From contig RIAY01000014.1 of assembly GCA_003833075.1 (NCBI GenBank), forward strand, positions 1 through 64,000: a DNA stretch of 64,000 nucleotides, written 5' to 3'. Source of the stretch: Muribaculaceae bacterium Isolate-036 (Harlan). GTDB lineage: Bacteria > Bacteroidota > Bacteroidia > Bacteroidales > Muribaculaceae. The position numbers were made by a program, and so were the translations under genes. Positions within the stretch are counted from its first letter, which is position 1, and every line of letters begins with the position of its first letter. The notes under the pieces are model-generated. The model was given only the letters and a program-made list of their open reading frames with translations, ran no database searches and was not told the DNA's origin. Shown piece by piece: positions 3,672 through 9,664 of the stretch.

Positions 3672-3679
3672 TATCTTTG
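3672..3679 (+). promoter_or_regulatory. -7 box upstream of the terminase-like gene
   Basis: TATCTTTG matches TAnnTTTG. It fixes the start of the downstream gene at ATG 3704: an upstream TTG at 3677 is inside the box and cannot be the start of a transcript-encoded protein. Confidence 0.6.
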
Positions 3680-3703
3680 CAGGCAACTTTTAAGTTTTGT
3701 ATC

Positions 3704-4135
3704 ATGGCAAAAGGTAAGAAAACAGGTGGGCGACAAAAAGGTACGCCCAACAAGGAAAACCCGCTCAAAGGGTATCTCCGCGCTCATAGCCTCGCATACT
3801 TTGAGCCGCGTGTACAGACCGACCCCGTAACTGGAGGATTGCGTGAGATTCAGCGTCAACGCCTCACGCAGGACGCCGAGGGAAATGTTTACAAGGTCAT
3901 CGACCTTATTCCACTTACCGACTCCAAAGGCAACCCTGTCACGATGTCAGACTTCGAGGCAGACATGATTGCTCTCAATCCCAACGAGCGCGTCAACGCA
4001 GAGCTGCGCCTGCTTGAGTTCCATACACCGAAGATGAAAGCCGTTGAGGTTGATATGGACGTTCGCGGTTCAGTCACAACCATAGAGGACCGGTTACGCG
4101 AACTCTGCGGAGAAACAGACGAGGACGACGACTGA
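3704..4135 (+). CDS. Phage terminase small-subunit-like protein
   Basis: A 143-residue protein, divergent from the structural operon. It begins with the basic GGRQKGTPNK motif seen at the N-terminus of many Bacteroidota phage small terminases and related DNA-packaging proteins. A helical middle follows, with NPNERVNAELRLLEFHTPK around residue 95-113, and the tail is strongly acidic (ETDEDDD). In the family this protein recognises phage DNA and hands it to the large terminase ATPase. No large terminase follows it here, so packaging function in this element is inferred only from similarity. A rho-independent-type hairpin lies 80 bp downstream. Confidence 0.6.
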   Translation: MAKGKKTGGRQKGTPNKENPLKGYLRAHSLAYFEPRVQTDPVTGGLREIQRQRLTQDAEGNVYKVIDLIPLTDSKGNPVTMSDFEADMIALNPNERVNAELRLLEFHTPKMKAVEVDMDVRGSVTTIEDRLRELCGETDEDDD

Positions 4136-4217
4136 CGCGCCCCTGCGGTCCGGTCTATTTTATCTACTTTTAGACACAACATAGTTTTTCATTTCTCAAT
4201 TTTTGTAGTTTTTTTAG

Positions 4218-4247
4218 GCGACCAGTTCGAGAGGATTGGTCGCTTTT
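4218..4247 (+). terminator. Hairpin terminator after the terminase-like gene
   Basis: A 7-bp perfect stem (4218-4224 with 4237-4243) and a 12-nt loop, followed directly by TTTT. The position 80 bp after the stop codon and the T-run fit an intrinsic terminator. Confidence 0.55.
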
Positions 4248-4289
4248 CCAATTCACCAATTACGAAACCCCAAGCAAACCGCTTCACGC
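4244..4289. repeat. 46-bp direct repeat, copy 1
   Basis: Identical over 46 bp to 4356-4401. It contains the motif AAACCCCAAGCAAACC at 4265-4280. A third, variant motif (AAACCCCAAGTAAACC) lies between the two copies at 4320-4335, so the motif occurs three times at spacings of 55 and 57 bp, like iterons. Confidence 0.85.
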
Positions 4290-4355
4290 ATTTTCAGCGC
4301 AATAAATATACCTCGTTAAAAACCCCAAGTAAACCCCAAAATATCCCCATAGGGG

Positions 4356-4401
4356 TTTTCCAATTCACCAATTACGAAACCCCAAGCAAACCGCTTCACG
4401 C
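4356..4401. repeat. 46-bp direct repeat, copy 2
   Basis: An exact second copy of 4244-4289, with the AAACCCCAAGCAAACC motif at 4377-4392. It is preceded by a small CCCC-ATA-GGGG hairpin (4345-4355) followed by TTTT, and is followed by the inverted-repeat array. Confidence 0.85.
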
Positions 4402-4409
4402 GTGCGCGC

Positions 4410-4566
4410 GATGGATATTCCTTTATGGATATCCTATATGGATTAGGACGTAAGGACTAATCCATAGTCCTTACTATGGATGTAGACGGATATATTAAGT
4501 CGAATATATCCTATGGATGTAGAAGAAAAACTTAAATCAAAGTTTTTCTATGGAGTAGGAGACGGA
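4410..4566. repeat. Array of perfect inverted repeats on a 37-bp period
   Basis: The core CTATGGATGTAGA occurs at 4474-4486 and 4511-4523, with a diverged third copy CTATGGAGTAGG at 4548; the start-to-start distances are 37 and 37 bp. Each core is followed by a different perfect inverted repeat: 4488-4496 with 4503-4511 (9 bp arms) and 4524-4533 with 4540-4549 (10 bp arms). Upstream are three overlapping, mutually exclusive stems: 4439-4446 with 4457-4464, 4451-4459 with 4465-4473, and 4461-4467 with 4474-4480. No open reading frame covers this stretch. Function is unknown; an origin, a structured RNA or a protein-binding array are all possible. Confidence 0.75.
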
Positions 4567-4705
4567 ATATAGTTCGCTTCGCTCCGACAACGCCGACATT
4601 TAAAAATTTTTTTTGAAGATTTTTTTCTTTTGGCTGACGCGCCGTAATCCTGCGGAGCAAGAAAGAGAAAAAGAAAAAAGTTCCGCGCAAAAAGAAAAAG
4701 AGAAA

Positions 4706-4735
4706 GCCCGGCTCTGCTGTGAAACAAAGCCGGGC
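4706..4735. terminator. GC-rich hairpin upstream of the small-protein pair
   Basis: An 8-bp perfect stem (4706-4713 with 4728-4735) and a 14-nt loop, within an extremely purine-rich stretch (4655-4745). No T-run follows on the plus strand. It may be a terminator or a structured leader element; the latter would need a promoter upstream of it. Confidence 0.35.
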
Positions 4736-4776
4736 GAGAAACAAAAGTTAAAAGGCAAGGGGGCCGGGGTGCGTGC

Positions 4777-4784
4777 TATCTTTG
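4777..4784 (+). promoter_or_regulatory. -7 box of the small-protein operon
   Basis: TATCTTTG, a full match to TAnnTTTG, lies 28 bp upstream of the ATG at 4812. No convincing -33 element was seen. Confidence 0.6.
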
Positions 4785-4811
4785 CATGTGAAATTTTAAA
4801 ATCATATCGCA

Positions 4812-5042: not shown

Positions 5043-5263
5043 AAAAATCAGAAATAATCTCGTTGACCGAATACGGCTGCGGCCTGACAATAGATGCCAA
5101 CAAGTTCGCATACTCGGAAGTACGCACAATGGCCCGTCAAACAAGAAACTCCGGCGGTAGTCTGACTATCAGAAACGCCGACATCTTTTCTTTCAGTGAA
5201 ATCAAGATGATTTGCGAAGAAGGACGAGGGCATATCACGTTCGCAGACCTCAGATGCGATTAA
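5039..5263 (+). CDS. Small beta-alpha repeat protein B, unknown function
   Basis: A 74-residue protein with a visible internal duplication: GLTIDANKFAYSEVRTM and SLTIRNADIFSFSEIKM match as xLTIxxAxxFxxSExxxM, each followed by a short turn, and the chain ends with a strand HITFAD. The same layout is present in the upstream 76-residue protein. I recall similar repeats in unannotated proteins of Bacteroidales mobile elements but cannot name a family. It is translationally coupled to its neighbour, and its stop codon overlaps the convergent integrase gene by 4 bp. Confidence 0.65.
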   Translation: MKKSEIISLTEYGCGLTIDANKFAYSEVRTMARQTRNSGGSLTIRNADIFSFSEIKMICEEGRGHITFADLRCD

Positions 5264-6753
5264 AACCCTTTCCCTTTCGTGCGCTCATAGACCGCCTCGC
5301 GGTCTGCGTCCACGTCCTTTATGCGAAACTGCACGGCACACCCGGTCGGGATTGTGTCGGGCAACTGCCCGGCAAGCCGGGCGATGACCTCATCAACGGT
5401 TCCGAAACCGATGTCGCTGACCTCGGCAAGAACCTCTCCGCGAAAGTAGGCACGGGCATAGACCATGCGCTTGGGCGAAAGCCGGAACAACTTGTCAGCA
5501 GGCTCATCAACCCCTCGCGCCATTCCCTGCTTGCTCTTCGCCGTGGAGAAAAAGATAAAATCAATCACTTTGGCATTCAACTCCCAGGCCGGAGTGAAAT
5601 CAATCTTGATGTAGCCTCGCGTTATCGTATGCCCATGCGAATGATTCATACCAAACGCCACCTCCGCAATGCTCGCTCCGCAGTCGTTCTGAGCCACAGT
5701 ACCCCAAGTGTGACGGAACGTGTATGCGCTGTACCAACGCTCTTTCGGTATCCCCATGCTCTTGCAGAGCTGCTTTATGCCGTTGTTCACATTCGCGTTG
5801 AACGAGTCCGAGGACGTGAACCGCTTGTGAAAGTTCAGCAAGTAGGGGTCGTCAGCCTCGGCCAGATATTTCTCAACTAACGGCTGAATAATCGGCTCGA
5901 CACGAATCTCGAAATATGCGTCATCGGCGCGGAACTTCTTCGTCTTGGCTCTCTTGTAGCAGATACAGCCGTTTCGGTAATCCTCCTTGCGCAGCTCGTA
6001 GATATCGACCGTGTTCATGCCTGCGAGACACAGCACCATCTTTGCCACATCGCGCCCCAGTTCGGGCAACGGATCGACCATGCGTGTATCCGGGAGAGGT
6101 GCGGTAAAGAACAGCCTGCAATCCTCCGGGCTTATCGCTTTCTTGACCGTGCGGTCACTCTGTGGAATCTTTACCTTTCCCCACGGATTGACCTTTATGC
6201 GCAGATTGCCGTTGTCATAGTCATTGTACTCCTCAACCGCAGCCTTGAACACCTGCCTCATACACACCGGGTACATCTCCTTTGCCCTGTGCGTATGCTC
6301 CAGCGACTGAATCCACCTCGTTATCTGCGTTGAGGTAAGCTGCGCGAACATGATTTTGTTCGTGCCGTAGAACCGCTCCATGTGTCCGAGAGCCTGCCGA
6401 TAGTTCTGCGCCGTGCGCAACTGGTACCGGTCCACCATGCGGTCGATATGGTGGCGCGCGTAGTCGCTGAAGCAGATGTCAGCGTCTCCTTGTGTCACAT
6501 ACTCGATAATCTGACGCACTGTCCACTTTGCGCAATCCTTGCGGTTGAGTTTGTCAGTATAGAGCAATATCATTCTCGCACAATACTCGTTCACGAAAGG
6601 GTCATTGATATTGCCGTGCTTGTCCACCATCTGCTTGGTGACAATCTTGTCGGTCTTGATATATCCCGGCTTGGTGTTCTGCGTCACCCGGATATAGACC
6701 TGATAGAATCCGTCCTTGCGCGGAGTTCTAACAACTGCTTTGAATGTTGCCAT
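5260..6753 (-). CDS. Tyrosine recombinase (integrase) with C-terminal extension
   Basis: A 497-residue site-specific recombinase, probably the integrase of the phage-derived element. Residues 1-90 are the arm-binding region, about 95-190 the SAM-like core-binding domain and about 205-395 the catalytic domain. Box II is visible as Arg347-His348 (TFRHTWGT), then His375 and the nucleophile Tyr381 in GHTITRGYI. The box I arginine is replaced: the sequence reads AGMNTVDIYEL with Asn247, a form I associate with a subset of Bacteroidota integrases. Residues 400-497 extend beyond the usual end of about 400-410 and have no recognised fold. The gene ends convergent with the small-protein operon. Confidence 0.9.
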   Translation of the reverse strand: MATFKAVVRTPRKDGFYQVYIRVTQNTKPGYIKTDKIVTKQMVDKHGNINDPFVNEYCARMILLYTDKLNRKDCAKWTVRQIIEYVTQGDADICFSDYARHHIDRMVDRYQLRTAQNYRQALGHMERFYGTNKIMFAQLTSTQITRWIQSLEHTHRAKEMYPVCMRQVFKAAVEEYNDYDNGNLRIKVNPWGKVKIPQSDRTVKKAISPEDCRLFFTAPLPDTRMVDPLPELGRDVAKMVLCLAGMNTVDIYELRKEDYRNGCICYKRAKTKKFRADDAYFEIRVEPIIQPLVEKYLAEADDPYLLNFHKRFTSSDSFNANVNNGIKQLCKSMGIPKERWYSAYTFRHTWGTVAQNDCGASIAEVAFGMNHSHGHTITRGYIKIDFTPAWELNAKVIDFIFFSTAKSKQGMARGVDEPADKLFRLSPKRMVYARAYFRGEVLAEVSDIGFGTVDEVIARLAGQLPDTIPTGCAVQFRIKDVDADREAVYERTKGKGF

Positions 6754-6946: not shown

Positions 6947-9664
6947 TTATTCTTCGATGGCTGCCTGCGCCGCTGCTACGCGGGCGATGGGCACACGGAA
7001 GGGTGAGCAGCTGACGTAGTTCATGCCGAGATTTGCGCAGAATTTCACTGAGCTGGGCTCGCCACCATGCTCGCCACAGATGCCGACCTTCAGATCCGGA
7101 CGGGTAGCACGACCTTTCTTAACACCCATCTCTACGAGCTGACCAACTCCTGTCTGGTCAAGTACCTCAAACGGATCTACCTTGATGATGCCGTGCTCTT
7201 TGTAGAATTTCAAGAACTTGGGAGCGTCATCACGAGAGAAACCGAATGTCATCTGGGTGAGGTCATTGGTACCGAATGAGAAGAATTCAGCCACCTCTGC
7301 AATTTCGTTTGCGGTAAGCGCCGCACGAGGAACCTCAATCATTGTTCCAACCTTGTAGATTACTGAGTCTCCTTTCTCTTCGAATACTTTTGCAGCAGTT
7401 GTGTTAATAACATCTGCCTGATTCTGGAGCTCTTTGAGAGAACCTACCAACGGAACCATAATCTCAGGAAGAACCTTGATACCGCGTGCCTTACATGCAA
7501 GTGCAGCCTCGATGATAGCGCGTGTCTGCATTTCGGTTATCTCAGGATATGTGATTCCAAGACGGCAACCACGGTGTCCGAGCATCGGGTTAAACTCTTC
7601 AAGTGAATCTACCTTTGCCTTAACCTCTTCGAGTGTGAGACCCATCTCTGCTGCAAGCTCTTTCTGTGTAGCAGTCTGATGAGGTACAAACTCATGCAAC
7701 GGCGGGTCAAGAAGACGTACAGTCACACCATAACCGTCCATAGCCTCGAAAATTCCCTCGAAGTCACCACGCTGCATGGGAAGAAGTTTGGCAAGAGCCG
7801 TACGACGACCCTCTTCGTCAGATGCAAGAATCATCTCACGAACTGATTTGATTCTGTCGCCTTCAAAGAACATATGCTCTGTACGGCAAAGACCTATACC
7901 CTGTGCACCAAAGCGACGTGCCTGTTTTGCATCGCGGGGAGAATCCGCATTTGTGCGTACAAGAGTCTTGGCGAATTTGTCAGAGAGGTTCATGATTGCG
8001 CCGAAGTCGCCATCAAGTTCAGGCTCGGTTGTCGGAACCTGTCCGTCATAGACATCACCTGTAGAACCGTTGAGTGAGATCCAGTCTCCCTCCTTATAAA
8101 CCTTGCCGTTCATTTCTACAGTCTTTGCCTTGTAGTCAACAACAATCTCACCGGCGCCAGACACACAGCATTTACCCATACCGCGAGCAACAACTGCAGC
8201 ATGAGATGTCATACCTCCACGCATTGTAAGGATTCCCTGTGCCACAGCCATACCGCGAAGGTCTTCAGGTGAAGTCTCGATACGCACGAGAACGACTTTC
8301 TTTTTCTTTTCTGACCATTCTTCAGCATCATCAGCCTGGAACACAACCTGACCGGTTGCGGCGCCTGGAGACGCTGGCAGACCTTTTGCCATGACTTTGG
8401 CACGCTTGAGAGCGTCTTTGTCAAACACAGGGTGAAGAAGTTCATCGAGTTTCTGGGGTTCTATGCGGAGAAGTGCTGTTTGCTCATCGATTTCGCCGGC
8501 ACGGAGAAGATCCATGGCGATTTTCACCATTGCAGCACCAGTGCGTTTGCCGTTACGGGTCTGGAGCATCCAGAGTTTACCATCCTGAATTGTGAACTCC
8601 ATATCCTGCATGTCTTTGTAGTAGTCTTCAAGACGTTTTGCAATAGCTATAAGCTCGGCAGCGCATACAGGCATAGACTCCTCAAGAGAAGGATATTTCT
8701 CGCGACGCTCATCTTCAGAAATACCCTGAAGTTTAGCCCATCTGCGTGAACCTTCCACTGTAATCTGCTGCGGAGTGCGGACACCAGCAACGACATCCTC
8801 ACCCTGAGCGTTAATAAGGTATTCGCCGTTGAAGATATTCTCACCTGTAGCTGCGTCGCGGCTGAACGCAACACCGGTAGCAGAGTTGTTACCCATGTTG
8901 CCGTATACCATCGCCTGCACGTTGACAGCAGTACCCCACTCTTCGGGGATCTGGTTCATACGGCGGTATATAATGGCACGTTCGTTCATCCAGCTGTCGA
9001 AAACAGCGCAGATACCTCCCCACAGCTGCTCCCATGCAGACTCTGGAAAATCTTTGCCTGTATATTCTTTTACGGCTGCTTTAAACCGTTTTACAAGTTC
9101 CTTGAGATCCTCTACATCAAGTTCATTGTCAAATTTCACACCCTTCTCCTCCTTAACCTTATCCATGATAGCCTCGAAAGGATCGATATCGGTTTTGCTC
9201 TTCGGCTTCATTCCAAGCACAACATCACCGTACATCTGTACGAAACGGCGGTAGCTGTCCCATGCGAAACGAGGATTGCCGCTCTTTTCTGCCATAGTGG
9301 CAACAGTCGCATCATTCATACCGAGGTTGAGCACTGTATCCATCATACCGGGCATAGAAGCGCGGGCTCCGGAACGTACTGAAACAAGAAGAGGATTAGA
9401 AGAATCATCGAATTTATTGCCGGTAAGTTCCTCGACATGAGCTATTGCTTTCTCAACTTCAGCCTTGATGTCTTCCACTACTTTGTCACGGCCATATTGT
9501 GTGTATTCTGTGCATACTTCTGTGGTAATCGTGAATCCGGGAGGCACTGGCATCCCCAACAGGTTCATCTCTGCAAGGTTTGCACCCTTGCCGCCAAGGA
9601 GATTTCTCATTGACGCATTACCTTCGGCTTTTCCGTCACCGAACGTATATACTTTTTTTGCCAT
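6947..9664 (-). CDS. ppdK: Pyruvate, phosphate dikinase
   Basis: A 905-residue cytoplasmic enzyme interconverting pyruvate, ATP and phosphate with phosphoenolpyruvate, AMP and diphosphate. The N-terminal nucleotide-binding domain begins with [19 protein letters not shown]. The phosphohistidine domain shows [16 protein letters not shown], with the swivelling His. The C-terminal TIM-barrel carries the PEP-binding region and GICGEHGG with its catalytic Cys. Length matches the family (about 870-910). It is single-gene, with its own promoter box far upstream and a hairpin at the 3' end. In Bacteroidales it serves gluconeogenic or glycolytic PEP/pyruvate flux. Confidence 0.97.

Follow-up and report, generated by a model that had tools for sequence, protein, structure and literature searches.

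Hairpins that prime replication on single-stranded DNA, as in phage G4 and the ssi sites of plasmid RSF1010, are recognized mainly by their shape and loop. In bacterial oriC, the order of DnaA-box, GC stretch and DnaA-trio includes a GC-rich step. An in-gene position of the origin is typical of phage lambda, but it is not essential to origin function. The lambda origin lies in the middle of gene O and consists of iterons and an AT-rich tract (PMC7466680). In phage SPP1, G38P binds the phage origin and oriL starts unidirectional theta replication (PMC3485210). DnaA-trios belong to the unwinding system of bacterial oriC (PMC8287927). For phages of Bacteroidota, little seems to be published on the sites at which replication starts.

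The window analyzed here is a stretch of 64,000 nucleotides from Muribaculaceae bacterium Isolate-036 (Harlan) (contig RIAY01000014.1). With a probability of roughly 80%, and based on sequence comparison, we interpret positions 4266-4702 as a replication origin that belongs to a temperate Bacteroidales phage of podovirus-like type, with a hairpin array as its putative AT-rich opening region. As in the lambda origin, direct-repeat iterons are located beside an AT-rich stretch, and in relatives of the window phage the genes for initiator and loader are adjacent (O and P in lambda, DUF6291-type and DnaC-like genes in the relatives). In contrast to lambda, the array is located far outside the initiator gene, and it is accompanied by a GC clamp, by hairpins that are not iterons and whose stems vary, and by an A-rich/CCGCG block. 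The succession of putative binding sites, a GC-rich stretch and short purine-rich AT repeats is analogous to bacterial oriC. This is a resemblance only, in which the repeats are not clean trios and a phage initiator is implied instead of DnaA; region 4136-4811 contains no exact DnaA box, one site with a single mismatch and several with two. The likeness to the hairpins of G4 and RSF1010 ssi, where shape and loop are the main recognized features, is one of description. The initial annotation knew of no described element of this kind, which holds only in part. The combination of iterons and an AT-rich stretch follows the plan of lambda and SPP1, whereas no description was found of the displacement, of the hairpin that recurs or of the A-rich/CCGCG block, and a search of open papers returned no description of the block or the hairpin motifs. 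A displaced phage origin of the iteron type is most likely the best explanation, with the general stem-loop and the A-rich block as the likeliest new parts.

The array is located in a noncoding gap (4136-4811) of a prophage, with a 152-aa gene on one side and two small genes followed by a tyrosine integrase on the other. The integrase, which had been named as one flank from the outset, was confirmed (5260-6753, minus strand; phrog_1, E 2.4e-17; Phage_int_SAM_5). The 'terminase-like' identity of the other flank remains unproven: the 152-aa KGTPNK protein gene (3677-4135, plus strand) has no PHROG or Pfam match and no terminase match. It adjoins the origin region in most relatives and has homologues in 14 viral contigs. 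The host junction is found on the outer (5') side of the integrase, between 6753 and ppdK at 6947, and relatives likewise have their junction on the ppdK side. Relatives encode a P22-like portal, an SU10-like capsid protein, the large subunit of terminase, a protein resembling T7 gp14 and a giant, DarB-like polyprotein (6329 aa); based on the portal protein, the isolated relatives are Bacteroides phages BKO1-TP3, BS-TP4 and BF1-TP2. In G297, this polyprotein (L071:7713 to L072:9202) unites helicase, pyrophosphatase-like and nuclease-like domains. The window prophage is interrupted by IS66 near the contig end, and its own DarB-like polyprotein (N-terminus at 1146-2069) is cut by IS66 near the N-terminus. 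When the rest of the prophage was sought in the assembly (G000), only other phage remnants were detected (C8 portal, C55 prophage).

On the plus strand, a Rho-independent terminator-like hairpin (GCGACCAGTTCGAGAGGATTGGTCGCTTTT, 4218-4248, a direct reading) marks the end of the upstream gene; its counterpart in relatives has a different stem. Iteron-like repeats AACCNNNNNNN follow in 11-bp steps (4266-4399, plus strand; copies at 4266/4277, 4321/4332 and 4378/4389), so that 11-bp iterons (AACCCCAAG..) neighbour the hairpins. Tandem repeats at helical spacing, which are putative binding sites, are thus present in the window and its relatives as 11-bp AACC repeats. Right after the last iteron stands a GC-rich block CTTCACGCGTGCGCGCG (4394-4410), kept in relatives as CTTCACGCGYGCGCG. 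The adjoining AT-rich hairpin array (4413-4562, plus strand) has a GC content of 33%, compared to 45% for the window, contains purine-rich TATGGATGTAGA-type spacers and is the predicted unwinding and stem-loop region. A conserved A/T tract (4597-4632) is located between the array and the A-rich block GAAAAAGAAAAAAGTTCCGCGCAAAAAGAAAAAGAG (4667-4702, plus strand), which is shared with replication-initiator genes of Bacteroidota phages. A GC-rich, terminator-like hairpin on the minus strand (4706-4735), followed on that strand by a T-rich run, probably bounds the region.

Within the array, the core CTATGGATGTAGA occurs in exact copies at 4474 and 4511 and in a diverged copy at 4548, each preceded by a perfect inverted repeat (4450-4474 with 10-bp arms, 4488-4511 with 9-bp arms and 4524-4549 with 10-bp arms), as originally annotated. 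The trio of overlapping, mutually exclusive upstream stems (4437-4466, 4450-4474 and 4460-4481) was equally confirmed. The exact 37-bp steps hold for the window but not as a conserved property, since homologues have only two hairpins at a distance of 36-46 bp; the exact pattern had no match in viral contigs, which indicates that the period is local to the window. Positions 4402-4600 contain five perfect stems with 9 bp or more. In 5000 dinucleotide shuffles, the mean number was 0.013 and the maximum 1, and these positions form the sole 199-bp tile of the window with at least three such stems. Folded as single-stranded DNA, the array has a z of -5.2. A covariance-model scan against Rfam at the gathering score gave 0 matches in the window, and blastn of the region against named phages gave none.

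Fourteen viral contigs contain the region or its neighbour gene, as does a series of genomes from the family. Most homologues share the same layout, namely terminator, 11-bp repeats, GC block, hairpins A and B, A/T tract, A-rich block, minus-strand terminator and integrase, and in most of them purine-rich TATGGA spacers separate the two hairpins. Hairpin A (4488-4511, plus strand) has a 9-bp stem and hairpin B (4524-4549, plus strand) a 10-bp stem with loop AAATCA. The loop of hairpin A is AAGTCG in all homologues except L013 (AAGTCT), and four outer pairs of the stem vary on both sides. Both stems covary in relatives. For hairpin A, 9 double-change cells were counted compared to 2.1 after shuffling, and 95.7% of the cells are paired, versus 25-63% when the alignment is slid. 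In a hand alignment anchored on the loops, hairpin A has 86 Watson-Crick cells, 0 G-U cells and 4 others, and hairpin B has 95, 1 and 4, respectively. Selection on structure, as initially suggested, is supported by this covariation together with the conserved, orientation-fixed loops. The near-absence of G-U pairs speaks for DNA over RNA, yet it is also compatible with template switching. The third hairpin (4450-4474, plus strand; loop ATCCA) is specific to the window. It lies within a 32-bp insertion relative to L013 (GGACGTA|GACGG) and L038. On direct reading, this insertion carries inverted copies of its neighbours and looks like the product of a template-switch event.

The near-complete relatives G298, G051, G301 and G303 each encode an initiator-type DUF6291+DUF7833 protein of ~200 aa. 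The next gene has a Walker A motif and in G051 matches DnaC-like loaders. Initiator and helicase loader are thus seen in the same phage in these relatives. In the window, an IS66 and the end of the contig truncate the prophage, and no DUF6291 gene was found in its assembly. The noncoding repeats follow steps of exactly 11 bp, with ten consecutive copies in L038, and their types recur within initiator genes: AACCCCAAGCA iterons at 11-bp steps are common to the window and the DUF6291 initiator gene of L137; AACCAAAATAA iterons are noncoding in L038 and L041 and in-gene in the DUF6291 gene of L090; and ATTTCTTCCGAAG iterons are noncoding in L020 and L022 and located inside the initiators of BKO1-TP3 (gp19) and BF1-TP2. 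In-gene iterons are absent from all eight close DUF6291 genes, whereas six of the seven distant ones contain AACC repeats at ~11-bp steps. Because the close genes lack iterons and the noncoding iterons match those within distant genes, the lineage of the window phage seems, in the simplest view, to have relocated its origin from inside the initiator gene to a place outside it. With a noncoding array beside the integrase, a location there, and not inside the initiator gene, is the best explanation for this lineage. GC skew of two near-complete relatives is monotone without a polarity switch at the site; it does not locate the origin and would also fit unidirectional replication.

As a DNA pattern, the A-rich block was retrieved from 27 viral contigs and 31 genome contigs, and all 31 of the latter belong to Bacteroidota. 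Outside the relatives of the window phage, it mostly lies inside ORFs of 235-373 aa, just downstream of iterons. Most of the tested ORFs match PHROGs annotated as replication initiation, O-like, DnaD-like or replisome-organizer, or carry DUF6291 or Lin1244_N. At the Pfam level, some tested members match Lin1244_N, DUF6291 or HTH_36/DnaD_N, and some have no Pfam match or only PHROG matches of unknown function. The block-bearing initiator of L102 is related to the product of SPP1 gene 38, a known origin-binding protein (E 4e-17, 36% identity), although both the hairpin and the A-rich block are missing from gene 38 itself. In L109-type genes, one extra A puts the block in another frame, giving EKEKKLREKKKK instead of EKEKSSAKKEKE. 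Judged by this frame change and by its noncoding position in the window, it is the DNA and not the peptide of the block that is conserved, and conservation as the peptide EKEKSSAKKEKE was rejected.

The extra A is found in L109, in which EKEKKLREKKKK was read, L118, L123, L132 and L134 (Flavobacterium), and F. fragile has three block-bearing loci. Viral contigs L087 and L090 carry the block and are readable only when TGA encodes glycine (code 25), which suggests phages of Absconditabacteria/Gracilibacteria-like hosts and hence a host range that may exceed Bacteroidota. In L016 and L020, hairpin and block have host genes (gmd; an EF-G-like gene) on one side and other integrases on the other; these loci are probably remnants of further prophages.

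Long perfect hairpins are found upstream of the A-rich block in approximately half of 33 distinct loci, and about half have no significant one. In a test blind to stems, the interval 30-260 bp upstream of the block contains ten copies of the motif CTAACG (1.32 per kb versus 0.07 elsewhere), all in the same orientation, without a single reverse CGTTAG. Stems of 7-10 bp enclose nine of these ten copies, versus 0 of 37 elsewhere. The 13 collected TAAC-type stems show covariation at all eight pairs, a descriptive count as the rows were mostly chosen as perfect hairpins. The window loops AAGTCG and AAATCA belong to another class than the common TAAC loop but occupy the same position, and BS-TP2 and BF1-TP2 have C[TGAC]G and C[TAGC]G hairpins inside their initiator genes without an A-rich block. 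Many initiator genes of relatives contained neither hairpin nor block when checked. As about half of the block loci have no significant hairpin, this element is frequent but not obligatory. We tentatively propose, as a possibility that falls short of even odds, that an orientation-fixed stem-loop with a variable perfect stem and a conserved loop (e.g. C[TAAC]G), together with GAAAAAGAAAAAAGTTSCGCG-AAAAAGAAAAAG, may constitute an undescribed replisome-loading or priming signal that would be read by a Bacteroidota host protein and shared by phages with unrelated initiators. The findings suggest a shared host factor that recognizes a DNA shape.

Of the several functions initially put forward for the array, a phage origin is favoured by the block, the iterons, the initiators and the covariation. 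The A-rich block recurs in replication-initiator genes of other Bacteroidota phages, where it is preceded by iterons of types that match the noncoding ones; in relatives, the gene for a DUF6291+DUF7833 protein precedes that for a DnaC-like loader; hairpin A covaries and the C[TAAC]G hairpin of unrelated origins keeps to the same place and orientation; and the L102 initiator provides the link to SPP1. Counting against an origin are that the initiator of the window prophage was not found, that the GC skew does not switch polarity at the site, that the hairpin is not universal and that the window loops differ from TAAC. At such an origin, the 11-bp iterons would be the binding sites of a phage initiator (a DUF6291 protein in relatives), which would then melt the AT-rich array next to them. 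The stem-loops could then fold in the melted strand by hairpin extrusion, and the phage DnaC-like loader and host replication proteins would assemble at the array, where the helicase would be loaded, or at the downstream A-rich/CCGCG block.

The hairpins might also be functionless, with template switching at an AT-rich, often-stalled site making and perfecting inverted repeats and covariation arising as a by-product. The inverted copies of neighbours within the 32-bp insertion, the perfect stems and the virtual lack of G-U intermediates fit this view, and template switching is known to create and maintain perfect stems (PMC8794818). However, it also inverts the spacer (PMC8604942), whereas the CTAACG loop near the block points one way only, and the same loop with unrelated stems occupies the same place in phages with different initiators. 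We regard hairpins without a function as rather unlikely. If the origin region were transcribed into a structured RNA with a regulatory or priming role, for instance, orientation-fixed hairpins with conserved loops could also occur, and the hairpin does fall within the initiator mRNA where the origin is in-gene. With one G-U among ~190 pair cells of hairpins A and B and no Rfam match, an RNA is nonetheless very unlikely, and since the hairpin is kept where the initiator gene is elsewhere, it is no element of that gene's mRNA.

The position between a small phage gene and the integrase would also suit a packaging (pac/cos) site or arm sites of the integrase. The upstream gene lacks a terminase match, the host junction, where an attachment site would be expected, is located across the integrase at ~2 kb, and L139 has the block and repeats with neither the upstream gene nor an integrase alongside. 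Combined with the occurrence of the same block inside replication genes of other phages, this makes either function highly improbable. A packaging site, a variable cassette array and a free-standing structured RNA, all raised initially, are each unsupported. A CRISPR-like or cassette array was rejected, the units being two conserved hairpins and one local insertion, and so was a decayed coding sequence: no long ORF crosses the array, and conservation falls on the iterons, the stems and the A-rich block.

The proposed origin anatomy is concrete enough to be tested in isolated Bacteroides phages, such as BF1-TP2 and BS-TP2 with their in-gene hairpins, and offers a possible way to locate origins in uncultured phages. 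Further observations concern the surrounding genomes. The 676 bp of window 4136-4811 (counterpart G097:C8:128443-129118) and the integrase recur with 100% identity in a genome of another genus, owing either to recent transfer or to bin cross-contamination. In BKO1-TP3 (PQ571269.1, 23818-25308) and BS-TP4 (PQ571277.1, 35987-37477), a reverse transcriptase gene adjoins a very large gene, possibly as a diversity-generating element. A second, unrelated prophage of the same strain (G000:C55:43025-44644) has a gene that resembles an initiator and contains in-gene repeats (TDRQADSQ), and it also encodes a DnaC-like loader.
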